Part shown: positions 21,058 through 37,784 of the stretch, piece by piece
How positions within the stretch are numbered: the first letter of the stretch is position 1
Layout of the letters: every line of letters begins with the position of its first letter
Source: an uncultured Syntrophobacterales bacterium
Lineage (GTDB): Bacteria > Desulfobacterota > Syntrophia > Syntrophales > UBA5619
Assembly (NCBI GenBank): GCA_903928915.1
Contig: CAIYSL010000078.1
Coordinates: 1 to 38,730, forward strand
Length of the DNA: 38,730 bases
Direction of reading: 5' to 3'
Made by a program: the position numbers and the translations under genes
Notes under the pieces: model-generated
Seen by the model: only the letters and a program-made list of their open reading frames with translations
Database searches by the model: none
Told to the model about the DNA's origin: nothing

Positions 21058-22047
21058 TTACGATTCTGTCTTGGCGTCGAGCAAGCCCAGCAGCCGGCAG
21101 GCGGCGGCAGGCGGCGGCACCTCCCCGCTCTCCACACTCCTGAGCACCTCCGGCAGGCTGCGCTGGACCTCCCGGGAGCTGTGGAAGCGGTCCTTCAGCC
21201 CCTCTTCCACGAGCGACCACATCCAGGCGAGCGACTGCAACCGGCGCCGATCCGCCAGCTCGCCGCTTCGCGTCATCGCCTCCCGATGGTTCCGGACGAT
21301 CTCCCAGATTTCCTCGATCCCGGTCCGCTCCCGGGCGCTGCAGGTGACCACCGGCGGCGACCAGTTGGGCGAGGCCGGCCGGAGCAGGTGGAGCGCGGTC
21401 TCGTAGTCCTTCCGGGCGATCCCCGCCCGTTCGACGTTGTCGCCATCGGCCTTGTTGATGGCCAGGGCGTCGGCAAATTCCAGGAATCCCTTCTTGATTC
21501 CCTGGAGCTGATCCCCGGCCCCCGCCAGCATCAGGACCAGGAAGAAATCGACCATCGAGGCCACGGTGGTCTCCGACTGGCCGATCCCCACGGTCTCGAC
21601 GATGATCACGTCGAATCCCGCGGCCTCGCACACCAGCATGGTCTCGCGTGTCTTACGGGCAACACCCCCCAGGGTGCCGCCGGAGGGGGAGGGGCGGATG
21701 AAGGCCCGGCCGTCGGTGGAGAGCCGCTCCATCCGCGTCTTGTCGGCAAGGATGCTGCCGCCGCTCCGGATGCTGCTGGGGTCGACGGCCAGGACGGCCA
21801 CCCGCCTGCCCTGCCCGACGAGCAGCATCCCGAGACTTTCGATGAAGGAGCTCTTCCCCACCCCCGGGACGCCGGTGATCCCCAGGCGGATCGCCTTGCC
21901 CGTGTGCGGCAGCAGCCGCTGGATGATTGCCTGGGCCTCGTCCTGGTCGCAGGGACGCGAGCTTTCGAGCAGGGTGATCGTCTTGGCCAGGATGCGGCGG
22001 TCCCCGGCGAGCACCCCCGCGACGCTGACTTCACCGGCGGGGATCAT
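21058..22047 (-). CDS. meaB: Methylmalonyl-CoA mutase-associated GTPase MeaB (ArgK family)
   Basis: G3E-family GTPase that gates delivery of adenosylcobalamin to methylmalonyl-CoA mutase and protects it from inactivation. At 329 residues it is the normal length. The P-loop is GVPGVGKSS (59-67); [35 protein letters not shown] and the Walker-B-like [13 protein letters not shown] followed by [10 protein letters not shown] are hallmark segments; NKADGDN is the guanine-specificity motif. ATG 22047 overlaps the mutase stop codon in an ATGA arrangement, so translation is coupled and the two proteins should be made in step. Confidence 0.95.
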
Positions 22048-24176
22048 CCGTTATTCTTCTCCAGGGCGTTCAGGCACTGGTTGGCGGAATCGACGATCGA
22101 CGTGCCGGGGCCGAACACGCCCACCGCGCCGGCGCGGTACAGGAAATCGTAATCGCCCGGCGGGATGATCCCCCCGACCACGACCTTGATGTCCCCGCCG
22201 CCGCCCGCCTGCAGGGCCGCGATCAGTTGGGGCACCAGGGTCTTGTGTCCGGCCACGAGGCTGGACACCCCCACCAGGTGGACGTCGTGCTCGACGGCCA
22301 TCCGGGCGACCTCCTCCGGGGTCTGGAACAGGGGGGCGATGTCCACGTCGAACCCCAGGTCCGCGAAGGCCGTGGCCACCACCTTGATCCCGCGGTCGTG
22401 GCCGTCCTGACCGATCTTGGTCATCAGGATCCGCGGCCGGCGCCCCTCCCGTGCGGCAAAGTCGCTGCACCGCTTCCGGATCGCCTCGATCACGGCGGCG
22501 TCCACGTACTCCGAGGCGTACACCCCGGATATGCACTGGGTGGTAGCCACAAACCGGCCGAACACCTTTTCCATGGCTTCCGATACCTCCCCGACGGTGG
22601 CCCGGGCGCGGACGGCCGGGAGCGTCGCTTCCAGTAGATTGCCCCCCTCTGCGGCGACGCGGGTCAGATTCTCCAGGGCCCTGACGACCTCCGCGTTGTC
22701 ACGGCGGTTGCGGAGCTCCTTGAGCCGGTCGATCTGCTCCAGGCGGACCGCATCGGTCACCTCGCGGATGTCCTCCAGCGGCTTGTCTTCGATCCGGTAC
22801 TTGTTCACCCCGACGATCACGTCCAGCCCCTGGTCGATCCGGGCCTGTTTCCGGGCCGCCGACTCCTCGATCCGCAGTTTCGGCATCCCCGCCTCGATCG
22901 CCCGGGCCATCCCTCCCAATGCCTCGACTTCGTTTATGATCTTTCTCGACTCGCGGATGATGCCGTCGGTCAGCGCCTCCAGGTAGTAGGAGCCCCCCAG
23001 GGGATCGACGACGCGGCAGACGTCGGACTCCTCCTGGACGATGATCTGGGTGTTCCGGGCGATCCGCGCCGAGAACTCGGTCGGCAGCCCCACCGCCTCG
23101 TCGAAGGCGTTGGTGTGGAGCGACTGGGTCCCGCCGAGGACCGCCGATAGGCACTCGAGGGTGGTGCGGATGATGTTATTGTACGGGTCCTGCTGGGTGA
23201 GGCTCCACCCCGAGGTCTGGCAATGGGTCCTGAGCATCAGCGACTGGGGGTTTTTCGGGTTGAAGGGTTTCATCAGCTCGTACCACAGAAACCGCGCGGC
23301 CCGGAGCATGGCGATATCCATGAAGAAATTCATCCCGATCCCGAAGAAGAAGGAGAGTCGCGGGGCGAAGGCGTCGATGTCGAGCCCCGTGGCCAGGGCC
23401 GCGCGCACGTACTCCAGGCCGTCGGCGATGGTAAAGGCGGTCTGGAGGACGGAGTTCGCGCCCGCCTCCATCATGTGGTAGCCGCTGATGCTGACGGTGT
23501 TGAACCGGGGCATGGTGCGGGAGCAGTGGCCGATGATGTCCGAGACGATCCGCATCGAGGGGCCGGGCGGGTAGATGTAGGTGTTCCGGGTCAGGTACTC
23601 CTTCAGGATGTCGTTCTGGATGGTGCCGGTCAGTTTTTCCGGAGGCACCCCCTGCTCCTCGGCGGCAACGATGAACCCGGCCAGGACCGGCAGGACCGCG
23701 CCGTTCATGGTCATCGACACGGACATCTCGTCCAGCGGGATCCGATCGAACAGGGCCTTCATGTCCTCGACCGAGTCGATCGCCACCCCCACCTTCCCCA
23801 CCTCGCCGCTGACCCGCGGGTTGTCCGAATCGTACCCCCGGTGGGTGGCCAGGTCGAAGGCGACGGAGAGCCCCTTCTGCCCGGCGGCGAGGTTCTGGCG
23901 GTAGAAGGCATTGGACTCCCGGGCGGTGGAGAACCCGGCATACTGGCGGATCGTCCAGGGCCGGCCGGCGTACATCGTGGCCACCGGGCCGCGCACGTAG
24001 GGGGGAAGCCCCGGCAGGGTGTTGACGTGCTCCATCGCTTCGAGGTCTTCGGCCGTGTACAGGGGCTTCACCAAAATCCCCTCCGGTGTCATCCAGTTGA
24101 GCGTATCGGGAGATTGTCCTTTCAGCAGTTTGGCGGCCAAGTCGTTCCACTGGCCTTTTTGCGGATGCTCGGACAT
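22044..24176 (-). CDS. Methylmalonyl-CoA mutase, full-length with B12-binding domain
   Basis: Adenosylcobalamin-dependent interconversion of methylmalonyl-CoA and succinyl-CoA, used in propionate oxidation or formation. The 710-residue single chain contains the whole TIM-barrel catalytic part ([20 protein letters not shown], then [41 protein letters not shown]) and the C-terminal B12 domain with GQDGHDRG, whose H593 is the base-off cobalt ligand; the later [12 protein letters not shown] and [12 protein letters not shown] complete the cobalamin fold. ATG 24176 follows AAGGAG. No separate small subunit is present, so it is probably an active homodimer of the methanogen-independent bacterial/mitochondrial type. 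It lies 56 bp after the epimerase gene and overlaps meaB. Confidence 0.95.
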
Positions 24177-24232
24177 GTATCACTCCTTAATGGGTGGTCG
24201 CGGAGACCGGTATGGTCGTCACGTCGCAGAGA

Positions 24233-24640
24233 TCAATCGTCCCGTTCGCACAGCTCGACGAGAACCCCGCGGGTCGCCTGGGGGTGGAGGAAGGCGATCC
24301 GGGTGCCCCCTGCCCCCTTCCGGGGCCGCTCATCGATCAGCCGAACCCCCATTGCCTTGAGTTCCTCCAGGGCGGCGTTGAGGTCTGCGACCCGGAAGGC
24401 CACGTGGTGGATGCCTTCTCCGCGCTTTTCCAGGTACTTGGCGATGGGACCGTCCGGAGCGGTGGACTCCAGGAGTTCCACCTCGCTCTCCCCCACCGGG
24501 AAAAAGGCAGTGGTCACCTTCTGCTCGGCAACGGTTTCCGTTCCCGCCGACGTCAGCCCCAGCAGATCCGTCCAGACGTGGGCCCCCTCGGCGATGCTGC
24601 CGACTGCGATCCCCAGGTGGTCGATGCTCAGAATTTTCAT
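24233..24640 (-). CDS. mce: Methylmalonyl-CoA epimerase
   Basis: Converts (S)- to (R)-methylmalonyl-CoA for the mutase. A 135-residue VOC-fold (glyoxalase-like) metalloprotein: SIDHLGIAV carries the first metal His (H8), then VTTAFFPVGESEVELLEST, KYLEKRGEGIHHVAFRV (second His) and RGVLVELCE (metal Glu), the exact pattern of bacterial epimerases. The start ATG 24640 has AAGGAG ~10 bases upstream; the frame to 24712 would add an unrelated leader. First gene of the operon mce, mutase, meaB, flavin reductase-like. Together these supply the propionyl-CoA/succinyl-CoA link; the carboxylase or transcarboxylase is not in the window. Confidence 0.94.
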   Translation of the reverse strand: MKILSIDHLGIAVGSIAEGAHVWTDLLGLTSAGTETVAEQKVTTAFFPVGESEVELLESTAPDGPIAKYLEKRGEGIHHVAFRVADLNAALEELKAMGVRLIDERPRKGAGGTRIAFLHPQATRGVLVELCERDD

Positions 24641-24734
24641 GACTGATACGCTCCTTGGACGTTCACGCGCTTCCCGACCGGCCCGCGGCACCGGGTGCCG
24701 CAGGGCGATCACCCGCGGGCGTAGTAGCCGTTAC

Positions 24735-26475: not shown

Positions 26476-26494
26476 CTGCACTGCCCTTGCCTGT

Positions 26495-26510
26495 TGGCAC
26501 GGTTAGTGGA
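26495..26510 (+). promoter_or_regulatory. Sigma54-like -24/-12 element before the electron-transfer operon
   Basis: TGGCAC-GGTTA-GTGGA matches the consensus TGGCAC-n5-TTGCA perfectly in the -24 half and in 3 of 5 bases of the -12 half, with correct spacing; the -12 C is replaced by G, which weakens the case. It is 113 bp before the first gene. An NtrC-type regulator is encoded 5 kb away in the same locus. Confidence 0.4.
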
Positions 26511-26622: not shown

Positions 26623-26829
26623 ATGAAGCTCGCACTGTTGATCATCATCGCCCTAGCGGGGGTGCTGATTCCCCTGCTGTGGATCACGGGGACGCTGACG
26701 TCCGCCGCTTATTTCATCCGGCAAAAGCTCGGTGCGGCCCGCAGAGACCAGGCCATCGCCCTCGATCCCCAACTGGGATTGACGATGGCCGACGGCGGGG
26801 ACGCCATCGACAAGAAGACGACGAAGTAA
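26623..26829 (+). CDS. Small single-span membrane protein, first gene of electron-transfer operon
   Basis: A 68-residue protein with one N-terminal hydrophobic helix (ALLIIIALAGVLIPLLWI) followed by TSAAYFIRQKLGAARRDQA and a charged tail (DGGDAIDKKTTK). I do not recognise a family. Start ATG 26623 has GGAGGG 10 bases upstream, and the length is too short for reliable homology, but its ribosome site, direction and position ahead of the HybA/HybB-like genes argue that it is real. It may be a small subunit or assembly factor of the membrane complex; this is inference. 169 bp, including a short GATTAC-GGCG-GTAATC palindrome at 26950-26965, separate it from the next gene. Confidence 0.65.
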   Translation: MKLALLIIIALAGVLIPLLWITGTLTSAAYFIRQKLGAARRDQAIALDPQLGLTMADGGDAIDKKTTK

Positions 26830-26998
26830 GGGAAGCCCGCAAGAAGAGGGGCAGATCCGCACGATCCCCGATAGTTCCGGTCGCTGGAAACGGAGGGATA
26901 GGGCGACAAAAGAGCCGCGACGGTTTGGTCCCCAGGATGATCTGCGACTGATTACGGCGGTAATCCGCTTAACATGCGATGAGAGGAGTGGACGAGGT

Positions 26999-27892
26999 AT
27001 GGGAATCGATCGGAGGACTTTTTTGAAGAGGCTGGGAGTAGGGGTAGCGGGGATTGCCCCGGGAAGCCTGTTATCTCCGGGAAAGGTCCAGGCGAAAGAG
27101 GCTGCGCCGGGCGGAACGAAGGAATTCATGGGGGTCCTCGTCGACACGACGCGCTGCGTCGGATGCCGGAGCTGCGAAATGGCCTGCGCCGACTCGCACG
27201 GCCTGCCGGTCCCGGACATCGGCGACACGGCGGCGCTGGAGAAGGTCCGGCCCACGTCGGAGACGCAGTGGACCGTGGTGAACCGCTTCAATACCGCCAA
27301 AGGAGATGTGTACGCGAAGAAGCAGTGCATGCACTGCAACCAGCCGGGGTGCGTCTCGGCGTGCCTCGTGAAGGCCATGGAAAAGCGGAAGGATGGGCCC
27401 GTCACCTGGGACGCCAACTGCATGGGATGCCGGTTCTGCATGATCTCCTGCCCCTTCGACATTCCGAAGTTCGAGTACGACAGCGCCGTCCCCAAGATCC
27501 AGAAATGCAGCCTCTGCTGGGAGCGGCTGCAGAAGGGGGAGAAGCCCGCCTGCGTGGAGGCCTGTCCCGGGGAGGCCCTCACCTTCGGCACCCGGCGAGA
27601 ACTGATCGTGGAGGGAAACAGGCGAATCTACGGCGAGCAGGGGAAATACATCCCCCACATTTACGGCGAGCACGAGGTGGGCGGCACCGGCTATCTCTAC
27701 CTCTCTGCGGTCCCCTTCGATCAGATCGGCCTCAGGACTGACCTGGGAGCAACCCCGTACCCGGAATTCAGCAAGGGATTCCTCTATTCCGTTCCGATCG
27801 TTCTGCTGCTCTGGCCGGCTTTCTTGATCGGAGTGAACACCTTGACCGGCCGGAAGAACGACGTACGACGCGCCCAAGGAGGTCAGCAATGA
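26999..27892 (+). CDS. HybA-like Tat-exported four-cluster ferredoxin with C-terminal membrane anchor
   Basis: Periplasmic electron-transfer subunit. The 297 residues start with a twin-arginine signal (DRRTFLKRLGVGVAG). Sixteen cysteines in four groups bind four [4Fe-4S] clusters: CVGCRSCEMAC; CMHCNQPGCVSAC; CMGCRFCMISC; and CSLC plus CVEAC. A hydrophobic C-terminal helix (VPIVLLLWPAFLIGV) anchors it, exactly as in HybA of hydrogenase 2 and Hme/Hmc-type complexes. ATG 26999 has GAGAGGAG upstream. The stop overlaps the next start in ATGA. No hydrogenase large or small subunit or cytochrome is nearby, so its electron donor is not shown. With the HybB-like protein it should exchange electrons with the quinone pool. 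Confidence 0.92.
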   Translation: MGIDRRTFLKRLGVGVAGIAPGSLLSPGKVQAKEAAPGGTKEFMGVLVDTTRCVGCRSCEMACADSHGLPVPDIGDTAALEKVRPTSETQWTVVNRFNTAKGDVYAKKQCMHCNQPGCVSACLVKAMEKRKDGPVTWDANCMGCRFCMISCPFDIPKFEYDSAVPKIQKCSLCWERLQKGEKPACVEACPGEALTFGTRRELIVEGNRRIYGEQGKYIPHIYGEHEVGGTGYLYLSAVPFDQIGLRTDLGATPYPEFSKGFLYSVPIVLLLWPAFLIGVNTLTGRKNDVRRAQGGQQ

Positions 27893-29136
27893 ACGGAACG
27901 ACGGTAACCGCAGCACCGATGGAAAACAAACGGACGCTCAAGGACATCATCGCCTTTGTGCTGAGCGAGTTGAAGCCGCGGGGGAAAATGTTGACGCCGT
28001 TCAACGTCATCTCTGGCGCGACGATCATCCTGGGCGCCTTCCTCATCCTCTACCGGCTGGTCAGGGGTCTGGGCGCCGTTACGAACCTCTCCCAGGATTT
28101 TCCCTGGGGAATCTGGATCGGGTTCGACGTTATGGTAGGCGTCGCTTTTGCCGGCGGAGCCTACGTTCTTACCTTTGTGGTCTATATCCTGCGATCGGAC
28201 AAGTATCACTCCATCATCCGGGCGACGGTCCTCAACGGCCTGTTGGCCTATGTCTTCTACGCCGGCGCGATCTTCCTCGACCTCGGCCGCTGGTGGAACA
28301 TCACCAACCCATTGTTCGGGAACAAATTCGGGGCGAACTCCGTTCTGTTCCTGATTGCCTGGCACTTCCTCTTGTACATGCTGGCCGAGTTTGTGGAATT
28401 CTCGCCGGCCATCGCCGAATGGCTGGGCCTGCGGAAGGTGAGGAGATTCCTCGGCTCGCTCACCGTGGGAGCGGTGGTGGTGGGTATCGCCCTCTCCACG
28501 CTCCATCAGGCGGGCCTCGGGGCGCTGTTCATGATGGCCAAGGGAAAGATCCACCCCCTGTGGTACACGGAATTCATCCCGGTGATGTTCTTCGTTTCGA
28601 GCATCTTCGCCGGCCTCTCGATGGTGATCTTCGAAGGGTCGATCAGCCACAGGGTCTTCAGCGATAAGATCGACCACAGGGATCACACCGCCTACGATGC
28701 AATCCTGATCGGCCTGAGCAGGGGGTGCGCGGTGGCCATGTTCGTATATTTCTTCGCCCAGTTTCTGATCTTCATCCACGGGTGGCACTGGTCGCTCTTG
28801 AACACGCCGATGGGCTACTGGTATCTGATCGAGATGATCGGGCTGGTGGCGGTTCCCTGCGCCCTGTTTCTCCAGGGGGCGCGGTCGGGCAGCGTCCCGC
28901 TCATCCGGACGGCCGCCGTCCTCACCATGATCGGGATCATCGTCAACCGGCTCAACATCTCCATCATCGCCTTCAAATGGTGGATACCGCTGAGCGAACG
29001 ATACATCCCCTCCTGGATGGAGATTGTCATCACCCTGGCGATCATTTTCACCGAGGTGTGGGTGTTCAGGTGGATCGTGACCCGGATGCCGGTATTCGGC
29101 GGAGTGCCGGCCTGGGCGGAGGAAAAACATACATAA
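27889..29136 (+). CDS. HybB/NrfD-family quinone-reactive membrane protein
   Basis: Integral membrane partner of the ferredoxin. The 415 residues carry about ten hydrophobic helices, with family landmarks LSQDFPWGIWIGFDV, AGGAYVLTFVVYILRSDKYH, FLDLGRWWNITNPLFG, SVLFLIAWHFLLYMLAEFVE, and TLHQAGLGALFMMAKGKIHP followed by LWYTEFIPVMFF, all typical of HybB. Such proteins bind quinone without heme and link periplasmic iron-sulfur subunits to the menaquinone pool. The start overlaps the HybA-like stop by four bases, so the pair is made together. Symbols hybA/hybB are not given because no hydrogenase subunits accompany them; the complex may belong to another enzyme. Confidence 0.93.
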   Translation: MNGTTVTAAPMENKRTLKDIIAFVLSELKPRGKMLTPFNVISGATIILGAFLILYRLVRGLGAVTNLSQDFPWGIWIGFDVMVGVAFAGGAYVLTFVVYILRSDKYHSIIRATVLNGLLAYVFYAGAIFLDLGRWWNITNPLFGNKFGANSVLFLIAWHFLLYMLAEFVEFSPAIAEWLGLRKVRRFLGSLTVGAVVVGIALSTLHQAGLGALFMMAKGKIHPLWYTEFIPVMFFVSSIFAGLSMVIFEGSISHRVFSDKIDHRDHTAYDAILIGLSRGCAVAMFVYFFAQFLIFIHGWHWSLLNTPMGYWYLIEMIGLVAVPCALFLQGARSGSVPLIRTAAVLTMIGIIVNRLNISIIAFKWWIPLSERYIPSWMEIVITLAIIFTEVWVFRWIVTRMPVFGGVPAWAEEKHT

Positions 29137-29160
29137 CCTCTTTCACAAGGAGACGAGACG

Positions 29161-29850
29161 ATGGAAGGCTTTACCTACGTGGACATCTTTGCGACAAAGG
29201 GCATTGAATATCTGCTGGTCATCGCCGCGCTGCTTTTGTTCATCCCCTTCTGGAGGGTGGTGAGCAAACCGGCGGCGATCCCGGCGGCCGTGGAGAACGT
29301 CATCCCGGCCGTAAACGGATGGTTTCATCTTCCCGAGAGGCTGTATTACCACCAGGGACATAGCTGGGCGATGCCCGAGGAAGGCGGCCTGGTGCGGGTG
29401 GGGATCGACGATTTCGCCCAGAAGTTGGTGGGGAAGGTCGATGGCGTCGAGCTTCCCCCGCTCGGTTCCCGGGTAGCGCAGGGAGAAAAAGGGTGGAGCC
29501 TGCGCGCCGGCGCGAAGACCATCGACATGCTTTCCCCTGTCGACGGAAACGTGGTGGCGGTCAACGAACAGCTGCTGAAGTCGCCGGGGGATATCGGCAA
29601 CGACCCCTACGGGCAGTCCTGGTTGTTGAAGGTCCAGGCGCCCAGGGTCTCGGCGAACCTCAAGAACCTCCTGTCGGGAGGGCTGGCCGTGAAATGGCTG
29701 GAGGGGGTCCGGGAGAACCTCTTCGCCCGGATGAATTACAACCTCGGCGCGGTCTCCCAGGACGGTGGTGTGCCGGTCGACGGAATAGCCAGAAATCTGG
29801 ACCGGGAACGGTGGGACGAGATCGTAAAGGAGTATCTTCTGACCTCCTGA
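29161..29850 (+). CDS. Membrane-anchored H-protein-like (GcvH-fold) protein
   Basis: A 229-residue protein with an N-terminal membrane helix (IEYLLVIAALLLFIPFW, ~15-31) and a biotinyl/lipoyl-fold domain of the glycine cleavage H type (HLPERLYYHQGHSWAMPEE, RVGIDDFAQKLVGKV, LSPVDGNVVAVNEQLL, DPYGQSWLLKV). At the canonical lipoyl site, ESVKxxxxxxSPVSG in GcvH, the sequence is LRAGAKTIDMLSPVDG: the aligned position is Ala118 and the nearest Lys (K119) is shifted by one, so lipoylation is doubtful. A conserved-looking C-terminal domain (from NLKNLLSGGLAVKWLEG) follows. Start ATG 29161 has AAGGAGACG upstream. It sits 24 bp after the HybB-like gene; glycine cleavage P and T genes are absent, so it is not for glycine catabolism. 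Confidence 0.85.
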   Translation: MEGFTYVDIFATKGIEYLLVIAALLLFIPFWRVVSKPAAIPAAVENVIPAVNGWFHLPERLYYHQGHSWAMPEEGGLVRVGIDDFAQKLVGKVDGVELPPLGSRVAQGEKGWSLRAGAKTIDMLSPVDGNVVAVNEQLLKSPGDIGNDPYGQSWLLKVQAPRVSANLKNLLSGGLAVKWLEGVRENLFARMNYNLGAVSQDGGVPVDGIARNLDRERWDEIVKEYLLTS

Positions 29851-29886
29851 GCGATCTGAGCAGAGTATGTGCGTCGGTGAGTATCT

Positions 29887-30720
29887 ATGAAGGAAGAAGC
29901 CTCTCGCCGTTATCCGCTGATACCAGAAGAAGAGCGGAAGTGTGTCTGGATGACCACGGGGTTGATATCCTACAAACTGTGCGACCGGAACTACCGGTGT
30001 GAATTCTGCCCCTTCGACCAGGCCTTGAAAAACGAAGAGGGCGTCGCCGACACCGAGGCGGCAGCGGGAGGCACCGGGACGGAGGGGCCGCTCGTCGCGG
30101 ACTCCTCCGCCCGGATCGGCGGATCCTTCTTCTACCACCCCGATCACTGCTGGGTGAAGGTGGAAACCACGGAGAGGGTGCGGATCGGGATCGACGAGCT
30201 GTTGACCCAACTGCTGACGCGCGTCCAGGTGGTCATCCTTCCCCAGGTGGGAAACTTCATTTCCCAGGGCGAGTGCTGCGCCCATATCATCCAGGAGGAC
30301 TACATCCTGCCGGTGGTATCTCCCCTCTCCGGGTCGATCCAGACTATAAACCCCCGCCTGAAGAAGAGGCCCGAACTGGTCAGCGACGATCCCCGGGGCG
30401 AAGGGTGGCTGCTGACGCTCAAGCCGGAAAACCTGGAAAGCGACCTGCAGAACCTGCTGTTCGGGAGAAAGGCGCTCCTCTGGTACCAGCAGGAGGAAAA
30501 GGAGATCCTCGCCCGGGCCGACGGGATCCTGAAGCAGAGTCCGAATGCCCTGGGTCCCACCATGCAGGACGGGGGCGTCAGGGTCGCGCACCTGCGGGAC
30601 ATCCTCGGCATCGTCACCGCCGAGCAGCGGACGCAGATCCTCGACTCTTGCGTCACCCGGCGCAGAAAGGCCCCCGGAGGGCCCGCCCTGCCGAAGTACC
30701 GTCCCCGCCCCGAAGGCTGA
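29887..30720 (+). CDS. H-protein-like protein with four-cysteine N-terminal motif
   Basis: A second GcvH-fold protein, 277 residues, paralogous in layout to the preceding gene. The N-terminus bears C19, C32, C38 and C41 in the order CVWMTTGLISYKLCD, then CEFCPFDQAL (C-x12-C-x5-C-x2-C), which looks like a metal or iron-sulfur site. The middle has the H-like domain (FFYHPDHCWVKVETTERV, VVSPLSGSIQTIN, DPRGEGWLLTL). There is no Lys near the lipoyl position: the stretch reads HIIQEDYILPVVSP. A tail domain (MQDGGVRVAHLRDILGIV) ends the protein. No membrane helix or signal is seen, so it is probably cytoplasmic. It lies 36 bp after its neighbour; GGTGAG is a weak ribosome site. Last gene of the operon. 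Function unknown. Confidence 0.82.
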   Translation: MKEEASRRYPLIPEEERKCVWMTTGLISYKLCDRNYRCEFCPFDQALKNEEGVADTEAAAGGTGTEGPLVADSSARIGGSFFYHPDHCWVKVETTERVRIGIDELLTQLLTRVQVVILPQVGNFISQGECCAHIIQEDYILPVVSPLSGSIQTINPRLKKRPELVSDDPRGEGWLLTLKPENLESDLQNLLFGRKALLWYQQEEKEILARADGILKQSPNALGPTMQDGGVRVAHLRDILGIVTAEQRTQILDSCVTRRRKAPGGPALPKYRPRPEG

Positions 30721-30735
30721 CCCTCCCCGGTCTCA

Positions 30736-31314
30736 CTATTTTTTCCCCCACCAGGGGAACCGGAATCCGTCGTTGGCAGGAGCACCCCGCTCCGCCCGGA
30801 TGGTCCGCTGGCAGGCAGGGCAGAGTTCGGCCGGTTTCTGGTCGATGTTCTCTACGTAGGTGGAAGAGTTCATGACGCACTGCGGCTGCGAACAGTGGAT
30901 CAGCCCGAAGGTGTGTCCCAGTTCGTGGATCGCCTCCTTCAGCAGGCGTTCGGTCGTCAATTCCCGGTCTTCGGGCAGTCCGTAGAACCGGTTATGGAGG
31001 CGATGGAGGGAGACGATCGCGCCGATCCCTTTCAGCTGGGCCTCGCCGAACACGAACGTGAGGATGGGGATGAACAGGTCCACATCGACCACACCCAGGA
31101 TCCGTTCGGTCTCCCGGGGCGGGGCCGCGATCAACTGCCTGAGCAGCAGCGACGAGTTGTACTGCTGGCGGTTCGGATCGAAGGCATCCTGCAGACTGAT
31201 CTCCCGGGCGTCTACCCTGGTCGGCAGACGGAACGTATCCGCGACAAAACGCTCGAGCGCGGCAAGGTAGGCGTGGTCCTCCAGCCCGATCGGTACGAGT
31301 GAGATATGGGTCAT
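30736..31314 (-). CDS. Archaemetzincin-type zinc metalloprotease
   Basis: A 192-residue metalloprotease of the archaemetzincin (AMZ) family. The extended zinc motif EAIHELGHTFGLIHCS supplies the three His ligands (HExxHxxGxxH) with the AMZ-specific Cys following. It continues as QCVMNSSTYVENID with the Met-turn-like CVM and CPACQRT, which with the earlier Cys pair forms the second, structural zinc site. N-terminal LDAFDPNRQQYNS-like and GIGAIVSLHRLHNRFYG segments fit the family. Cytoplasmic by lack of signal peptide. Physiological substrates of bacterial AMZ are not known. It starts 19 bp after the response regulator stop on the same strand, so it is part of the two-component operon; no strong ribosome site is seen apart from GAGAGCGG. 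Confidence 0.88.
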   Translation of the reverse strand: MTHISLVPIGLEDHAYLAALERFVADTFRLPTRVDAREISLQDAFDPNRQQYNSSLLLRQLIAAPPRETERILGVVDVDLFIPILTFVFGEAQLKGIGAIVSLHRLHNRFYGLPEDRELTTERLLKEAIHELGHTFGLIHCSQPQCVMNSSTYVENIDQKPAELCPACQRTIRAERGAPANDGFRFPWWGKK

Positions 31315-31333
31315 CCGCTCTCGCGCATCAGCG

Positions 31334-32677
31334 TCATCGTTTGAGATGGTATTTTTCGATCTTGTTGTACAGGGTGAGACGGCTTATTTTGAGGATTTCC
31401 GCCGCCTGAGCGATGTTCCCCCGCGTCTGTGCCAGTATCTTCTCGATATGGGCCCGTTCCACATCCTCCAGGGTTTCTCCGCCGGAAGGGGTCGCCTGCG
31501 CGGAGAAGGGAAACGAAAGATCTTCGACCTGGATCTTGCTTCCCTTCGTCACCACCATCGCCCGCTCGACCACGTTGCGCACCTCCCGAATGTTCCCCGG
31601 CCAGTCGTAGGCGCTGAACGTCTCCAAGGCCTGGGGCGAGAAATCGGTGACGTTCTTGTTCATCGACCGGGCATACTTGTTGAGGAAATACCGGGCGATA
31701 AGCGGAATGTCCGACCGCCGCTCCCGAAGCGGCGGCAGCACGACGGAAAAGACGTTGAGCCGGTAGTACAGATCTTCCCGGAAACTCCCCTCCCTGATTG
31801 CCTTCTCCAGGTCCTTGTTGGTCGCCGAGATGACCCGGAAATCGCAATCGATGGTCTTGTCGCCCCCCAGCCGGGTGAATTTCTTCGTCTCGATGACCCG
31901 GAGCAGGTCCATCTGCATCTTTTCGGTAATGTTGCCGATCTCATCCAGAAACAGGGTCCCCTTGTCGGCCATCTCCAGCTTTCCCTTGCGCGTGTACATG
32001 GCCCCGGTGAAGGACCCCTTTTCGTGGCCGAACAGCTCGCTCTCCAGGAGCCCTTCCGGGTAGGCGCCGCAGTTGATGGTGATGATCGGAAAGTAGCGGC
32101 GGCTGCTGCGGCTGTGGATCGCCCGGGCAATCAGCTCCTTGCCGGTCCCGCTTTCCCCGAGGATCATCACGGTGGAATCGGTCTTCGCCACCGTGTTGAC
32201 CATCTCCATGACCTTCTTGATGGCGGGGCTTTCCCCGACGACTTGATCGGGCAGTTGCAGCTCTTCGATCTGGTGGCGCAGTTGGAGGTTCTCCGTGATC
32301 AGCCTCCGCTTCTCGACGGCGTTCCTGATCAGCCTGCTCAGGTCGTCGGGATCGACCGGCTTCGTTATGTAGTCGAAGGCCCCGTCCTTCAGCGCCTGGA
32401 TGGCCGTATCCACCGCCGCGAAGGCCGTGATGATGATGGTGACGATGTTCTGATCGATCTCCTTGATGCGGTGTTGGAGCTCGATCCCGTCCATTCCCGG
32501 CATCTTGATGTCGAGCAGGATGATATCCCAGGGGTTGTCCTGCAGCTGCTTCAGGGCGCTGGTGGCGTCTTCGGCAGTAGCCACCCGATACCCGTCCGCC
32601 TTGAACCATTCGTACAGCGACTCCCGCACCGAGGCTTCATCGTCGACGATCAGTATTCCTATCTCTTCGGGCTTCAA
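31334..32677 (-). CDS. NtrC-family sigma54-dependent response regulator
   Basis: A 447-residue transcription activator in three parts. The receiver domain (1-~120) has phospho-acceptor D56 in ILLDIKMPG and K106. The AAA+ ATPase has Walker A GESGTGKE (174-181), the sigma54-contacting loop GSFTGA (221-226; the usual form is GAFTGA, Ser is a common variant), and Walker B TLFLDEIG (241-248). The Fis-type helix-turn-helix has ARGNIAQAAEILKISRLTLY in essence (GNIAQAAEILKISR) at the C-terminus. It should act with sigma54 RNA polymerase from an upstream site. The start is TTG 32677, chosen because AAGGAG lies 7 bases upstream and no in-frame ATG precedes the receiver domain. It follows the histidine kinase gene by 114 bp. 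Confidence 0.95.
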   Translation of the reverse strand: MKPEEIGILIVDDEASVRESLYEWFKADGYRVATAEDATSALKQLQDNPWDIILLDIKMPGMDGIELQHRIKEIDQNIVTIIITAFAAVDTAIQALKDGAFDYITKPVDPDDLSRLIRNAVEKRRLITENLQLRHQIEELQLPDQVVGESPAIKKVMEMVNTVAKTDSTVMILGESGTGKELIARAIHSRSSRRYFPIITINCGAYPEGLLESELFGHEKGSFTGAMYTRKGKLEMADKGTLFLDEIGNITEKMQMDLLRVIETKKFTRLGGDKTIDCDFRVISATNKDLEKAIREGSFREDLYYRLNVFSVVLPPLRERRSDIPLIARYFLNKYARSMNKNVTDFSPQALETFSAYDWPGNIREVRNVVERAMVVTKGSKIQVEDLSFPFSAQATPSGGETLEDVERAHIEKILAQTRGNIAQAAEILKISRLTLYNKIEKYHLKR

Positions 32678-32791
32678 AGGTCATCTCCTTTCCTGCGGCC
32701 GCAGTCGCCGTACCCGATACTCCCTTTTCGGCCCCTGCGGACCTTCCCGACCCGGGTCGACGGTGGCGCGGGGGTCGGAGCCTGTCGGCTG

Positions 32792-34468
32792 TCATTGACC
32801 ATCCTGAGCCCCTCTGCGCTCCGGGTTCGGCAGCGGCCCGTTATCCTGCTGCCCCTTCTTTTGCGGGGATACCCGGGGGAGGAAGACGGTAAAGGTCGTT
32901 CCCTGGTTCACCGTGGAATCCACCTGGATCGTCCCGCCGTGCTGCTCCACGATTCCGTACACCACCGACAGTCCGAGCCCCGTGCTCTTCACCTTCGTGG
33001 AAAAGAACGGCTCGAAGATATGGGGAAGGACATCTGCGGGGATCCCCCTGCCGTCGTCCGCTACGCTGACCCGGATCCGCTCGGTGCGGCAATCGGTGGC
33101 TATGGTTATCTTCCCTCCCGGAGAAGTCGCCTCGATGGCATTGATGATCAGGGCAACCAGGATCTGCTGGATCCCGCCGGCATCGCACTGGAGGCTATCG
33201 TCCCCGTCGTCGAACTCTTTGAGGAGGGTCAGCTCTTTCATCTTGATGCTGTGGTCGATCACTGCGGCGCTGTTGTCGATGATTCTATGCAGGCGTTCTT
33301 CCTTGAAATCGCCCGAGGTCTTGCGGGCGAAGAGGAGCAGATTCTTGACGATGTTTCCACACCGCTTCGTTTCGTTGCTGATGAAGGTCAGATTCTTCTT
33401 CACCGACTCCAACGTCTCGGAATCGACACCTTCCCGTGCCAGGTACCGGGAGGATAGTTTTGCGTAGGAGAGGATCCCGGAGAGGGGGTTGTTGATCTCG
33501 TGGGCCACCATTGCCGACAGCTCACCCATGGCGGCCATCTTTTCCGCGACGATCAGCTGCGACTGGGTCTTCTCCAGCTCCCGGGTCTTTTCCTGGACCC
33601 GGCTCTCCAACTGTGTCGACCAGTCCTGGACGGCCTGGTTCGCCTCTTTCAGGTGATAGGTCATCTTGTTGAACGAATAGGCCAGGTTTCCCAGTTCGTC
33701 GCGCGAATGGATGTCGACCTTGTGGTCGAGGTTGAGGTTCGCAACCTCCTTGGTGGCGTCGTTGAGCTTCTTGATCGGGCTGTGGATCATCTTCCGGACG
33801 AACGCCCCCTTCACCAGGGCGGTAAGCAGTATCAGGATGAAGGAGTACAGCAGCATCTTGTCGCGCGTGTCGACGATGCTCCGGTCCCCTTTCTCCAGCG
33901 AGAGCTTCACATCCAGGATGCCCAGCAATTTTTCCTTCGGGGAATGGGCATGACAGGAGGCATTGTAGCAGACCGGTTCGTTCTCGATCGGGTTGATCAT
34001 CCCTAAAATGCGGTATCCGTCGGGGGATTGCAGTATCCGCGTCCGGTCCTTGGTGGGGACGACCCCCTTCGCCGGTTCTTCCGCATGGCAGACGTAGCAC
34101 TGCTCCGCCTGCTTGTCCGCGATCTGCCCCCGCTCCTCGATCCGGTCGGAAAAGGCAATCGCCCCTGCTTTATTGTAGATCCGTATTCCCTCGAATATTT
34201 CCTCCTTGCCGAGACTGAGGATCGTGTTGGTCAGATCGTCGCGGCGATTCTCCAGCATGCTGTTGTAGGTCGCCCTCTTGATAAGGTTGCTCACCTGGAC
34301 CGCGTTATTGACCACATCTTCCCGGTACAGGTTGGTGAAAAAGTAGATATTGACGTAGGTAATGATTCCGAAGGACAGCATCAGGAGGACGACCAGCAGC
34401 ACGAAAAACTTCACGCCGATCGAATTGGTCAAGCCGACGATTCTCTCGAGCAGCCGTGCAGATTTCAT
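32792..34468 (-). CDS. Sensor histidine kinase with putative c-type heme-binding periplasmic domain
   Basis: A 558-residue membrane kinase: transmembrane helices near 18-44 and 206-222 bound a ~160-residue periplasmic domain. This domain has a canonical heme attachment motif CYVCH (124-128) and a CxxxxCH motif (C167, C172, H173: CYNASCH), so it may bind one or two covalent hemes and sense redox or a gas. HAMP (from ~223), HisKA with H323 in MVAHEINNP, and a complete HATPase domain (N-box LIINAIEA, G1 DDGRGIP, F EPFFSTK, G2 STGLGLS) follow. Homologues with such motifs are known in metal- and sulfate-reducing deltaproteobacteria. Start ATG 34468. It is first of an operon with an NtrC-type regulator and the archaemetzincin, and lies convergent to the HybA/HybB operon. 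Confidence 0.92.
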   Translation of the reverse strand: MKSARLLERIVGLTNSIGVKFFVLLVVLLMLSFGIITYVNIYFFTNLYREDVVNNAVQVSNLIKRATYNSMLENRRDDLTNTILSLGKEEIFEGIRIYNKAGAIAFSDRIEERGQIADKQAEQCYVCHAEEPAKGVVPTKDRTRILQSPDGYRILGMINPIENEPVCYNASCHAHSPKEKLLGILDVKLSLEKGDRSIVDTRDKMLLYSFILILLTALVKGAFVRKMIHSPIKKLNDATKEVANLNLDHKVDIHSRDELGNLAYSFNKMTYHLKEANQAVQDWSTQLESRVQEKTRELEKTQSQLIVAEKMAAMGELSAMVAHEINNPLSGILSYAKLSSRYLAREGVDSETLESVKKNLTFISNETKRCGNIVKNLLLFARKTSGDFKEERLHRIIDNSAAVIDHSIKMKELTLLKEFDDGDDSLQCDAGGIQQILVALIINAIEATSPGGKITIATDCRTERIRVSVADDGRGIPADVLPHIFEPFFSTKVKSTGLGLSVVYGIVEQHGGTIQVDSTVNQGTTFTVFLPRVSPQKKGQQDNGPLPNPERRGAQDGQ

Positions 34469-34730: not shown

Positions 34731-35669
34731 ATGAAGACCTCGCTTCTCGACCTGCTTGTCTGTCCGCTCTGTCTGCCTCGGGAGATCGCGCTCACGGCTG
34801 TAATCACCGCAGAGCGCGGGGGGGACATCGGCGAAGGCGCACTGACCTGCCCGGGGTGCGGCGGCTCCTACCCGGTGCGGGAAGGGATCGCCTTCCTCGA
34901 CCCGGCTGCCCGGATGGAAACGAAACCCCCTTCGAAGTATGAGACCGCCCCGGTGGTGTCGTCCTACCTCTGGAGCCACTACGGCGATATCCTGGGGGAC
35001 CCCGAGGCCTCGTCGGCGTATGCCGAGTGGGCAGGCCTGGTAAGCGGCGGCTCCGGCGCGGTCCTGGACATCGGCTCGGCTGTCGGCAGGTTCGCCTTCG
35101 AGATGAGCCGCACGCACGATTTCGCCGTGGGAATCGATAATTCAGTGGCCTTCATCCGGGCGGCCCGCGAGCTGCTGGTCCGGGGCCGGAAGGCGGTAGC
35201 CCTCCGCGAGGAGGGGCTGCTCACCCGGGAGGAGACGGTAGTGCTGCCCGGGCAGTGGCGGACCGACCGGGTCGAGTTCATCGTGGCCGACGCCCTGGCG
35301 CTGCCGTTCCGATCCGGGAGCTTCGCCGCCGCGGCATCGCTCAACATCGCCGACAAGGTGCCGCTGCCGCTTCAGCACCTCCGGGAGGCAAACCGCGTCA
35401 CCCGGGACCGGGAGGCCCAGTTTCTCCTTTCGGACCCTTTTTCCTGGTCGGACGAGGTAGCCCGTCCGGAGGATTGGCTGGGGGGAACGGCGACCGGCCT
35501 CTATGCCGGCCGGGGGCTCGACAACATCGCCGCCCTGCTTGCGGGCAAGGACCGGCTGCTGATGCCCCCCTGGCGGGTCGCCGGCCGGGGCAGTGCCTGG
35601 TGGAAGATCCGGACCCATGTGAACCACTTCGAGCTGATTCGGAGCTGCTTCGTCAAGGCGGAACGGTAA
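34731..35669 (+). CDS. Methyltransferase with N-terminal Trm112-like zinc domain
   Basis: A 312-residue fusion. The N-terminus (LLDLLVCPLC at residues 3-12, later LTCPGCGGSYPVREGIAFLD) is a Trm112-like domain with two CxxC pairs binding zinc; such domains often partner with methyltransferases. A class I methyltransferase follows (VLDIGSAVGRFAFEM, GIDNS, FIVADALALPFRSGSF, ADKVPLPLQHLREANRV). The start ATG 34731 has AAGGAG 6 bases upstream. A Trp/His-rich C-terminus (AWWKIRTHVNHFELIRS) ends the protein. The acceptor is unknown: it could be RNA, a small molecule or a cofactor. It runs convergent to the molybdopterin oxidoreductase, with only 51 bp between the stops and no clear terminator. A single transcription unit with a perfect promoter. 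Confidence 0.85.
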   Translation: MKTSLLDLLVCPLCLPREIALTAVITAERGGDIGEGALTCPGCGGSYPVREGIAFLDPAARMETKPPSKYETAPVVSSYLWSHYGDILGDPEASSAYAEWAGLVSGGSGAVLDIGSAVGRFAFEMSRTHDFAVGIDNSVAFIRAARELLVRGRKAVALREEGLLTREETVVLPGQWRTDRVEFIVADALALPFRSGSFAAAASLNIADKVPLPLQHLREANRVTRDREAQFLLSDPFSWSDEVARPEDWLGGTATGLYAGRGLDNIAALLAGKDRLLMPPWRVAGRGSAWWKIRTHVNHFELIRSCFVKAER

Positions 35670-35720: not shown

Positions 35721-37784
35721 CTATCGTTGTTGCGCCCTGCTCACGCGGCACATGAAGCTTCTGCTGGTGGAGGTGCCGGTCACCGGGCTCCGCCGGTCGT
35801 CCTCGGTGAGGGCGTTGAGATTGCATCGCAAGTCGTATTCGCCCCACCCCCAGGCAAGGCGGACCATGCCGGGGCGCACCGTGGTCGAGATTCTCGCCGC
35901 CATTTCGACGGCCCCCTTCGGAGATTCAATCCGCACCGGATCGCCCTCCGTCAGATCGTAACGCAGGGCATCCTCGGGGTGGATATCGACTACGCAACCC
36001 GGACCGGCCTCCCGCAGGGAGGGGATCGTGCGGAACTGCGAGTTGGTGAAGCGGATGTCGCGGCTGCCGCTGATCCCCAGCATCGGATACTCGCCGCTCC
36101 GATCGGCAAAGCTGATCGGGTCGTCGCCCAGGCCATGCTGAAACGGCACGCCCGGGAATCCTGCCTCCGCCAGCCGCGCGGAGAAGAATTCGACCTTACC
36201 GGTCGGCGTCTTGAACGGCGCCTCCCGGTATTTTTCGTAGCGCATCTCCTCGACCCGCAGGCCATTGCCGTTCTGCCGCAACTTTTCCACGGTGACCCCC
36301 GCAGGCTCCAATTGGTAATCGAGGGCCTCTTCCGCGCTCTGCCAGGGAAATTCAGCGGAAAACCCGAGCCTCCTGCCCAGCGCGAAGACGATCTGCCAGT
36401 TCGGCCAGGAATCGCCCACCGGCGGGATGACCGCGTTTTGCAGGAACATCGGGTTGTTGCGGATGGAGGAGCGATTGAGCTGGGTCGTTTCAAAGCAGCT
36501 GGCCGCCGGGAGAATGACGTCGGCAAGCTTGGCCGTCTCGGTCATAAACATCTCGATCACCACCAGGGTCTCCAGCTTGGCGAAGGCCTCCCGGGTCCGG
36601 GTCGAATCAGCCATGGTGATCAGCGGGTTGCCGGTCTGGACCACCACCATGTTCACCGGGTAGGGCGATCCCTCGAGAATGGCATCGATCAGGCAGCCCT
36701 GGACCTGGTTGCCCCAGGTTTCGCTGAAGGTGTTGAACAGCGGGTAGTCGCGGGTGATGGGAACCGCCCCGGCGGGAAGCCGATCCTTCAATTGAATGTT
36801 GCGCACCGGTATCGGTTGCGGCAGCACGTCGCCGCCTGGTTTGTCCAGGTTTCCGGTCAAAGCCCGGAGCATGGCAATCGCCCGGGTCGTGTCGAAGACC
36901 TCGCGGTGCATGTCCAGGCCGTTGCCGTCGACGATGCATCCGGGTTTCGTGGCGGCATAGAGACGGGCCGCCTGCTTGATCTGCTCGACGTTCAGCCAGA
37001 TCTTTTCGGCGACCGCCTCGGCGGGATATCGGGCGGCAACAGCTTTGAGCTGTTCGAAGCCGGTCGTATGGGTTCGGACAAAGTCAGCGTCAAACAGTTC
37101 TTCCTTGATGATCTCGGAAATCATCGCCATGGCGAGCAGGCCGTCGTGTCCCGGCTTGATCCGCAGCCAGAGGTCCGCCTTGCGGGCAAGGGCGGTTTGC
37201 ACGGGATCGACCACGATCAGCGTGGCCCCCTGCTCGCAAGCGCAGTGGATCGCTTCGGCCGCACCCAAGGCGGTGTCTTTGTCGTTCTTGCCCCAGACGA
37301 TGATGCAGCGGGCGTTCTTCGCCTCCGGGAAGGCCATGGCCCCATAGGTGAAGGAATGCGCAAAATCACGGTCTACAAAACAGATGGAGCCGTTGCCGAT
37401 TGTGTTGGGGGAGCCGAAGAGATTCATCAGCCGGTTGGGATAATCCCAGGGCGCTCCCCAATCGGCAGCCATACCCCGCAGCCAGGCAACCGACCGTGCC
37501 CCGGATTCCTCCCGATGACGGTGAAATCGGGCGGCTACCAGGTCGATCGCCTCATCCCAGCCTGCTTCGCGAAAGCCGGAGCCGTCGTCCTTCTTGATCA
37601 GCGGAGTCGTCAGCCTCCGGGGGGAATAGACGATATCCGCGGCAGCAGCCAGTTTGGGGCAAGACAGCCGTTTCTCCGGGACGAGGAAGGATTTTCGCCG
37701 TGCGGCGATCAGGCGGTTGTCAACCACCTCCGCCTCGACGGGACAGCAGGAAGAACAGAGACGACAAACCGTATCCAGGATCAT
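35721..37784 (-). CDS. Molybdopterin (Mo/W-bis-MGD) oxidoreductase catalytic subunit, orphan
   Basis: A 687-residue DMSO reductase-superfamily protein. The N-terminal [4Fe-4S] motif is CRLCSSCC (C7, C10, C13/C14) with the fourth ligand C42 in KRLSCPK. Molybdopterin-binding segments include WDEAIDLVAARFH, IIVWGKNDKDTA, IVVDPVQTALARKADLWL, VVQTGNPL, ADVILPAASCFE and the C-terminal cofactor-binding domain. C135 (NGSICFVD) is in the region that supplies a Cys metal ligand in relatives such as nitrate reductase or acetylene hydratase, but the alignment is not certain. No Tat signal, so cytoplasmic; no ferredoxin or membrane subunit genes adjoin. Start ATG 37784 has AGGAGAAC upstream. Reaction unknown: thiosulfate or polysulfide reduction, aldehyde or formate oxidation, or hydration are all possible. 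Confidence 0.88.
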   Translation of the reverse strand: MILDTVCRLCSSCCPVEAEVVDNRLIAARRKSFLVPEKRLSCPKLAAAADIVYSPRRLTTPLIKKDDGSGFREAGWDEAIDLVAARFHRHREESGARSVAWLRGMAADWGAPWDYPNRLMNLFGSPNTIGNGSICFVDRDFAHSFTYGAMAFPEAKNARCIIVWGKNDKDTALGAAEAIHCACEQGATLIVVDPVQTALARKADLWLRIKPGHDGLLAMAMISEIIKEELFDADFVRTHTTGFEQLKAVAARYPAEAVAEKIWLNVEQIKQAARLYAATKPGCIVDGNGLDMHREVFDTTRAIAMLRALTGNLDKPGGDVLPQPIPVRNIQLKDRLPAGAVPITRDYPLFNTFSETWGNQVQGCLIDAILEGSPYPVNMVVVQTGNPLITMADSTRTREAFAKLETLVVIEMFMTETAKLADVILPAASCFETTQLNRSSIRNNPMFLQNAVIPPVGDSWPNWQIVFALGRRLGFSAEFPWQSAEEALDYQLEPAGVTVEKLRQNGNGLRVEEMRYEKYREAPFKTPTGKVEFFSARLAEAGFPGVPFQHGLGDDPISFADRSGEYPMLGISGSRDIRFTNSQFRTIPSLREAGPGCVVDIHPEDALRYDLTEGDPVRIESPKGAVEMAARISTTVRPGMVRLAWGWGEYDLRCNLNALTEDDRRSPVTGTSTSRSFMCRVSRAQQR

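Follow-up and report, generated by a model that had tools for sequence, protein, structure and literature searches.

A 38,730-nucleotide stretch of DNA from an uncultured Syntrophobacterales bacterium (the window; contig C78 of a 4.34-Mb genome assembly in 141 contigs) carries a five-gene operon coding for a small membrane protein, a membrane-bound electron-transfer pair related to HmcB and HmcC (HmcBC) and two proteins with the fold of the glycine cleavage H-protein (GcvH1 and GcvH2), which converges across a gap of 15 bp with a minus-strand operon (34468-30736) for a haem-containing histidine kinase, a sigma-54-dependent regulator and an archaemetzincin (Table 1). The two operons may form a two-component system that responds to redox and whose effectors, with the H-protein fold, act on the membrane pair, a reading to which we give about an even chance of being correct. 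An undescribed redox-signalling system is preferred to a lone respiratory enzyme, because in several phyla the set travels together with the haem kinase, the regulator and often the zinc protease. The initial annotation of the window located the five genes correctly with respect to coordinates, order, plus strand and the 4-bp overlap of the HmcB and HmcC genes, but did not mention the facing operon, which, as judged from the conserved gene order, belongs to the same unit, so that half of the system was absent.

A scan of 85,000 genomes for GcvH1, from which 31 loci were fetched and their architecture derived with profiles, shows kinase, regulator and archaemetzincin genes repeatedly beside those for GcvH and HmcBC. 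These loci are found in Deltaproteobacteria, Bacteroidetes, Ignavibacteria, Chlorobiota, Krumholzibacteria, Gemmatimonadetes and Spirochaetes, with metagenome-assembled genomes of Syntrophaceae/Syntrophus as the closest relatives by this gene. HmcBC and GcvH-fold genes occur together in about 45 loci of several phyla, a recurrence which exceeds chance by far and bears out the earlier proposal that the GcvH-fold genes are conserved beside the HybA/HybB-like pair. Conservation with the GcvH set extends to the whole facing operon in Desulfobacterota and to the kinase in other phyla; in L010, L011, L019, L023, L031, L137 and L138, the genes for kinase, regulator, archaemetzincin and GcvH, with or without HmcBC, are contiguous on one strand, the set being complete in the first five of these loci. 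Non-canonical GcvH-like proteins are present in about 85-90 of 297 sampled Desulfobacterota genomes (a hand count of rows with a best E-value of about 5e-33 or better), and forty stretches fetched from this search contain two forms of the cassette. The minimal form lacks HmcBC and combines the genes for kinase, sigma-54 regulator and archaemetzincin with one GcvH gene or two, most of them having the Cys motif (L099, L101, L102, L110-L113, L119, L120, L124 and L126-L130; L125 is partial), while the extended form present in the window adds HmcBC and a GcvH with a transmembrane (TM) anchor (L114-L118, L122 and L131-L138; L131, L133 and L136 are partial). GcvH genes accompany the two-component system and archaemetzincin without HmcBC in about 20 loci, and are tied more tightly to these partners than to HmcBC.

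The five-gene operon is preceded by a putative sigma-54 promoter, and near relatives carry sites of the same kind (L006, TTGGCATAGTTATTGGA; L122, TTGGCATGGTTATTGGA; L007, TTGGCACGCTTATTGTT). The GG-for-GC variation in the -12 box is common to the window, L006, L122, L010 and L011, and distant relatives show the full sigma-54 consensus upstream. Sites of the TTGGCAC type lie 5' of the first gene in 46% of 56 GcvH/HmcBC operons versus 2% of 50 regulator operons, compared with a rate of 1.8% at which random 370-base segments reach a score of 12 with the position weight matrix. Because these sites precede GcvH/HmcBC operons and only rarely regulator operons, the regulator probably controls the GcvH/HmcBC operon. 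In the minimal loci L112, L113, L128 and L129, the genes for kinase, regulator and archaemetzincin converge with a lone gene for a Cys-containing GcvH that has its own sigma-54 site upstream, suggesting GcvH2 alone as the local target, and one two-component system appears to be dedicated there to one H-protein-like product.

A signalling role of GcvH is preferred mainly because of the loci L190-L194, in which it is the only output domain that the kinase can reach locally. Loci of Bacteroidota, Chlorobiota and Spirochaetes combine HmcB-HmcC and the diheme kinase with fusions of a receiver domain (REC) to GcvH, namely REC-GcvH of about 265 and TM-REC-GcvH of about 385 amino acids (L016, L018, L033-L035, L184 and L190-L195; L018 breaks off before a kinase gene is reached). 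The domain layout was confirmed by Pfam in L194, and the phosphorylation residues of the receiver are intact in almost all of the 24 cases. In L190-L194, no response regulators other than the receiver-GcvH proteins were found next to the diheme kinase, and neither a sigma-54 regulator nor an archaemetzincin occurs in the stretches of these loci that were examined. GcvH therefore looks like a signalling effector.

The occurrence of the diheme sensor of the kinase is coupled to that of HmcBC. Among the loci with a scored kinase, both are present in 24, only HmcBC in 3, only the sensor in 1 and neither in 21, which places the diheme kinase in 24 of 27 HmcBC loci versus 1 of 22 others (Fisher p 1e-9, uncorrected for phylogeny). 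The loci with HmcBC only are L109 and L114, where HmcBC is diverged, and L007, whose kinase is truncated at the end of the contig, and the locus with the sensor only is L017, where the contig begins inside GcvH1; 11 further loci are concordant with the coupling. Haem motifs are missing from the minimal-cassette kinases that were checked, which contain PAS or GAF domains. Both CxxCH and Cx4CH occur in nearly all aligned sensors covering the two positions, CxxCH being invariant wherever it is covered. The sensor domain gave no Pfam match above the cut-off, only weak matches to sCache_3_2 and Mcp40H-20_sensor in relatives, and a PDB sequence search with it gave no match. The diheme kinases of the Bacteroidota type (L194:5165-7033, L192:5377-7239 and L191:10814-12697) carry an insertion of about 120 amino acids with a zinc ribbon in the catalytic ATPase domain.

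The archaemetzincin appears to be specific for the system. A tree of 54 system and 17 solo sequences separates the two groups without error (support 0.935), and in a converse search starting from archaemetzincins, 13 of 13 system-type members adjoin the regulator and/or GcvH versus 0 of 17 classical ones. The full zinc motif is retained in 48 of the 54 system sequences; the window protein carries HELGHTFGLIHCSQPQCVM...CPAC, in agreement with the M54 pattern HExxHxxGxxHCx4CxM...CxxC. Bacterial archaemetzincins, whose role is unclear, thereby gain a consistent genetic context from the cassette. The regulator of the window conforms to the NtrC type, with the GxFTGA motif readable as GSFTGA.

The known role of the H-protein fold is that of carrying a lipoyl group. 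The AlphaFold model of GcvH1 matches the H-protein of T. thermophilus (1onl) by Foldseek with a template modelling score of 0.91 (target length) and a root-mean-square deviation of 1.6, and both GcvH proteins keep the fold, but, as judged from the alignments, not the lipoyl lysine. At its column, GcvH1 of the window has Ala and GcvH2 has Asp; across 67 proteins, Lys occupies the column in only 4, and the residue there is not conserved among relatives. With 76 and 67 bits, the two proteins also miss the curated gcvH cut-off of 115.85 bits, and no gcvP/T or hdr genes are present among the scanned window genes. The initial annotation is supported in not taking them for lipoyl carriers, an identity that was rejected on account of the lost lysine column. 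A function like that of LbpA in the sHdr sulfur-oxidation pathway would be in line with the fold, with GcvH domains on Hdr-like proteins elsewhere and with a Lys in the window GcvH1 one residue past the aligned site, yet is most improbable in view of this column and of the R, T, A, V or H which many relatives have at the adjacent position.

The two proteins are distinguished by their N-termini. The TM segment of GcvH1 is nearly invariant (YVDIFATKGIEYLLV...FWR) and the C-terminal tail QDGG...G...W is conserved (alignment A1, 21 sequences), and the TM segment matches the HmcD model NF045712 weakly, below the cut-off (E-value 0.007). In GcvH2, C19, C32, C38 and C41 are invariant (alignment A2), but the Cys motif is not assignable to a metal site, because the N-terminus is disordered in the AlphaFold model (predicted local distance difference test <50 over residues 1-75). 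Some HmcBC loci code for an extra GcvH paralogue in which the Cys-rich N-terminal domain is duplicated (CPFL...C...C...CP; L012:1099-2049, L013:3050-3982, L015:6733-7650 and L025:4679-5575). In addition, iron-sulfur flavoproteins of the HdrA/MvhD (FlpD) type with 970-1150 amino acids (L103:8604-11522, L104:5644-8610, L105:6136-9102 and L106:7705-11109) bear at their C-terminus a GcvH-like domain whose tail is that of the GcvH proteins, those of L104-L106 being encoded near kinase/sigma-54 regulator genes, and GcvH domains of other loci are fused with Fer4 domains.

HybA/HybB-type pairs usually move electrons between the outer side of the membrane and the quinone pool. The initial typing of the window pair as HybA/HybB holds insofar as it is a pair of the same kind, but the best NCBIfam models are HmcB for the ferredoxin (NF045715, 337 bits, versus 223 bits for HybA) and HmcC for the membrane protein (NF045714, 394 bits, versus 244 bits for HybB), with all scores below the curated cut-offs (420 for HmcB, 550 for HmcC). 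A C-terminal hydrophobic tail is visible in the sequence of the ferredoxin, and the membrane protein is encoded by the sole strong HmcC-like gene of the genome. HmcBC is likely to carry electrons, because cytochrome genes (c3 cytochromes, cytochrome b or multihaem genes) adjoin it in several loci of other taxa; in the genome of the window, a search with PF02085 gave only one c3-like multihaem open reading frame, which is on another contig. The 68-residue TM protein encoded by the first gene matched no Pfam or NCBIfam family, and its own profile found matches 5' of HmcB or beside GcvH in L006, L007, L009, L012-L015, L024-L026, L122 and L132.

The proposed system would operate as follows. Through its two c-type haems, whose motifs are seen in the sequence, the kinase may sense redox conditions in the periplasm or a ligand of the haems; given the adjacency of the genes, it would phosphorylate the sigma-54 activator, which would then turn on the facing operon at its -24/-12 site, in line with the comparative promoter data. 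As expected from their families, HmcB and HmcC would exchange electrons with menaquinone on one side and with a haem carrier of the periplasm on the other, perhaps the haems of the kinase itself. The GcvH pair would act as non-lipoyl adaptors on the cytoplasmic face, one membrane-anchored and the other with a Cys cluster of metal or thiol type, and, by analogy to the receiver-GcvH fusions, may couple the signalling state to HmcBC or to Hdr-type partners. The archaemetzincin might trim or remove a cytoplasmic component, with GcvH2 as its usual neighbour. The electron route, the phospho-effector role in the lineage of the window and the target of the protease are what we infer, whereas the genes present and their conservation, the missing lipoyl site, the promoters of the sigma-54 type, the fusions of receiver and GcvH and the linkage to the diheme kinase are seen directly in the data. 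That the lipoate-free GcvH fold is a two-component output domain docking on the quinone/periplasm pair, thereby linking haem kinase and quinone pool directly, with the archaemetzincin resetting the effector, is a more specific version that would amount to a new class of signalling system and that we put forward tentatively, as possible rather than probable.

Several observations weigh against a signalling role of GcvH or its proposed control. The GcvH proteins in the lineage of the window lack a receiver domain, and a phospho-effector role is extrapolated from other phyla, where REC-GcvH could postdate a purely structural role; GcvH domains on HdrA/MvhD proteins suit an electron-transfer scaffold equally well. 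The -12 box of the window is without the usual GC, and a strict scan requiring GG/GC does not pick up this site, while the Fisher test overstates the independence of the loci because they are phylogenetically related. HmcBC with GcvH scaffolds might instead constitute a dedicated respiratory complex, the two-component system controlling transcription only, an explanation to which we assign roughly one chance in four. It would account for the sigma-54 promoter of the operon, for the fusions of GcvH to HdrA/MvhD and Fer4 proteins and for the c3 cytochromes adjoining HmcC in several loci, and has a parallel in the Desulfovibrio hmc operon with its own dedicated regulators rrf1/rrf2 (PMC10924467). 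However, GcvH and the regulators persist in the loci devoid of HmcBC, and next to the receiver-GcvH fusions of other phyla, no further response regulator was found near the kinase in L190-L194; together with the sigma-54 promoters, these features speak against the self-contained redox complex with GcvH scaffolds proposed initially.

A non-respiratory role of HmcBC as a sensory wire, by which the quinone pool would set the redox state of the periplasmic haems of the kinase and GcvH would relay the output, appears unlikely. The near-perfect coupling of HmcBC to diheme sensors, which are absent where HmcBC is absent, and the single c3-like multihaem reading frame elsewhere in the genome would fit such a wire, but the cytochrome c3, cytochrome b and multihaem genes next to HmcBC in other loci suggest real electron flux. 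It is very unlikely that HmcBC supplies the quinone connection for a remotely encoded oxidoreductase such as a hydrogenase, or for the molybdenum enzyme within the window, although the similarity to HybA/HybB and the occurrence of two group-1 [NiFe] hydrogenases in the genome would point in this direction. Each hydrogenase comes with a small subunit bearing a twin-arginine translocation (Tat) signal and its own cytochrome b (recognized by sequence inspection), and HmcBC is therefore not needed by these enzymes, which are self-sufficient in quinone-reactive cytochrome b and were rejected as partners; with none in the window, the earlier description of a pair lacking a hydrogenase partner is upheld. 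The molybdenum enzyme was likewise rejected, since it has no Tat signal, is separated from the operon by other genes and did not recur as a neighbour when the related loci were clustered. If GcvH is a signalling effector as preferred here, quinone pool and periplasmic redox state would be linked to gene expression in anaerobes, and the cassette predicts sigma-54 regulons. In relatives from Desulfobacterota and Bacteroidota, the H-protein fold without lipoyl site recurs together with kinases, receivers, the zinc protease and redox proteins of the membrane or Hdr type.

A comparison with known systems indicates that the parts are known, whereas their combination and the way in which the H-protein fold is used seem to be new. 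The Hmc complex (HmcABCDEF) resembles the window system in providing the closest named families, HmcB and HmcC, and in having dedicated regulators, but HmcA (16 haems), HmcE (cytochrome b) and HmcF (CCG protein) are absent from 26623-34468, GcvH-fold proteins are present on the cytoplasmic side, and haem kinase, sigma-54 regulator and archaemetzincin stand in place of Rrf1/Rrf2. HybA/HybB of E. coli hydrogenase 2 represents the same two-protein module, and tail-anchored ferredoxin/quinol-oxidase pairs have been published for hydrogenase 2, Hmc, octahaem-cytochrome and [FeFe] hydrogenase modules, none of them with GcvH, archaemetzincin, a haem kinase or a two-component system (PMC10924467). The glycine cleavage H-protein and LbpA of sHdr (PMC6067878) have the fold in common with the window proteins, and GcvH-like domains associated with Hdr-like proteins are seen in relatives, but the window-type GcvH has lost the lipoyl lysine and gained other elements (TM anchor, C-terminal tail, Cys motif or receiver). 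The sCache_heme sensor family, recently shown to hold a c haem and to bind nitric oxide (PMC12889525), and Geobacter GSU0582/GSU0935 likewise have a periplasmic CxxCH haem sensor before HAMP and HisKA, whereas the window-type sensor adds Cx4CH and does not match the family at cut-off. In the literature within reach, which excluded most subscription papers, a GcvH fold with HmcBC, response regulators or archaemetzincin was not described, and neither H protein nor hmc nor a peptidase is mentioned in the paper on the D. vulgaris sigma-54 regulome.

As to the neighbourhood, the initial annotation correctly stated that no hydrogenase, cytochrome or gcvP/T/L gene is adjacent, but excluded formate dehydrogenase genes, while a molybdopterin oxidoreductase resembling the formate dehydrogenase alpha subunit (Fdh-alpha) is encoded in the window. 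The other neighbours are included at the end of Table 1.

Table 1. Predicted genes and promoter of the two converging operons, followed by neighbouring genes of the window.
Feature	Position	Strand	Evidence or remark
Putative sigma-54 promoter, TTGGCACG-N4-GTGGA	26494..26510	+	position weight matrix score 12.6; perfect -24 box; GG replaces GC in -12 box
Small single-TM protein, 68 amino acids, first gene of operon	26623..26829	+	open reading frame with Shine-Dalgarno sequence
HmcB/HybA-type Tat-exported, tail-anchored ferredoxin, four Cys clusters	26999..27892	+	Tat signal; PF13247 (Fer4_11) 4e-20
HmcC/HybB-type integral membrane protein, NrfD family	27889..29136	+	PF03916 3e-12
GcvH1: N-terminal TM segment, then H-protein fold and conserved C-terminal tail	29161..29850	+	PF01597 (GCV_H) 3e-24
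GcvH2: N-terminal C-x-W..C-x5-C-x2-C motif, H-protein-like domain, tail	29887..30720	+	PF01597 5e-20
Archaemetzincin (M54), system-specific clade, zinc motif intact	30736..31314	-	NF033823, 168.6 bits (cut-off 145)
NtrC-type response regulator: REC, sigma-54 activator AAA+, Fis helix-turn-helix	31334..32677	-	Pfam; conserved neighbour
Histidine kinase: periplasmic di-c-haem sensor (CxxCH + Cx4CH), HAMP, HisKA, HATPase	32792..34468	-	Pfam; alignment of the haem motifs with relatives
Molybdopterin oxidoreductase, no Tat signal	35721-37784	-	best match Fdh-alpha, below all curated cut-offs
Trm112-like domain fused to methyltransferase	34731-35669	+	related to OvoA C-terminal methyltransferase
Methylmalonyl-CoA mutase, GTPase (MeaB-like) and probable epimerase genes	21058-24712	-	upstream of the locus

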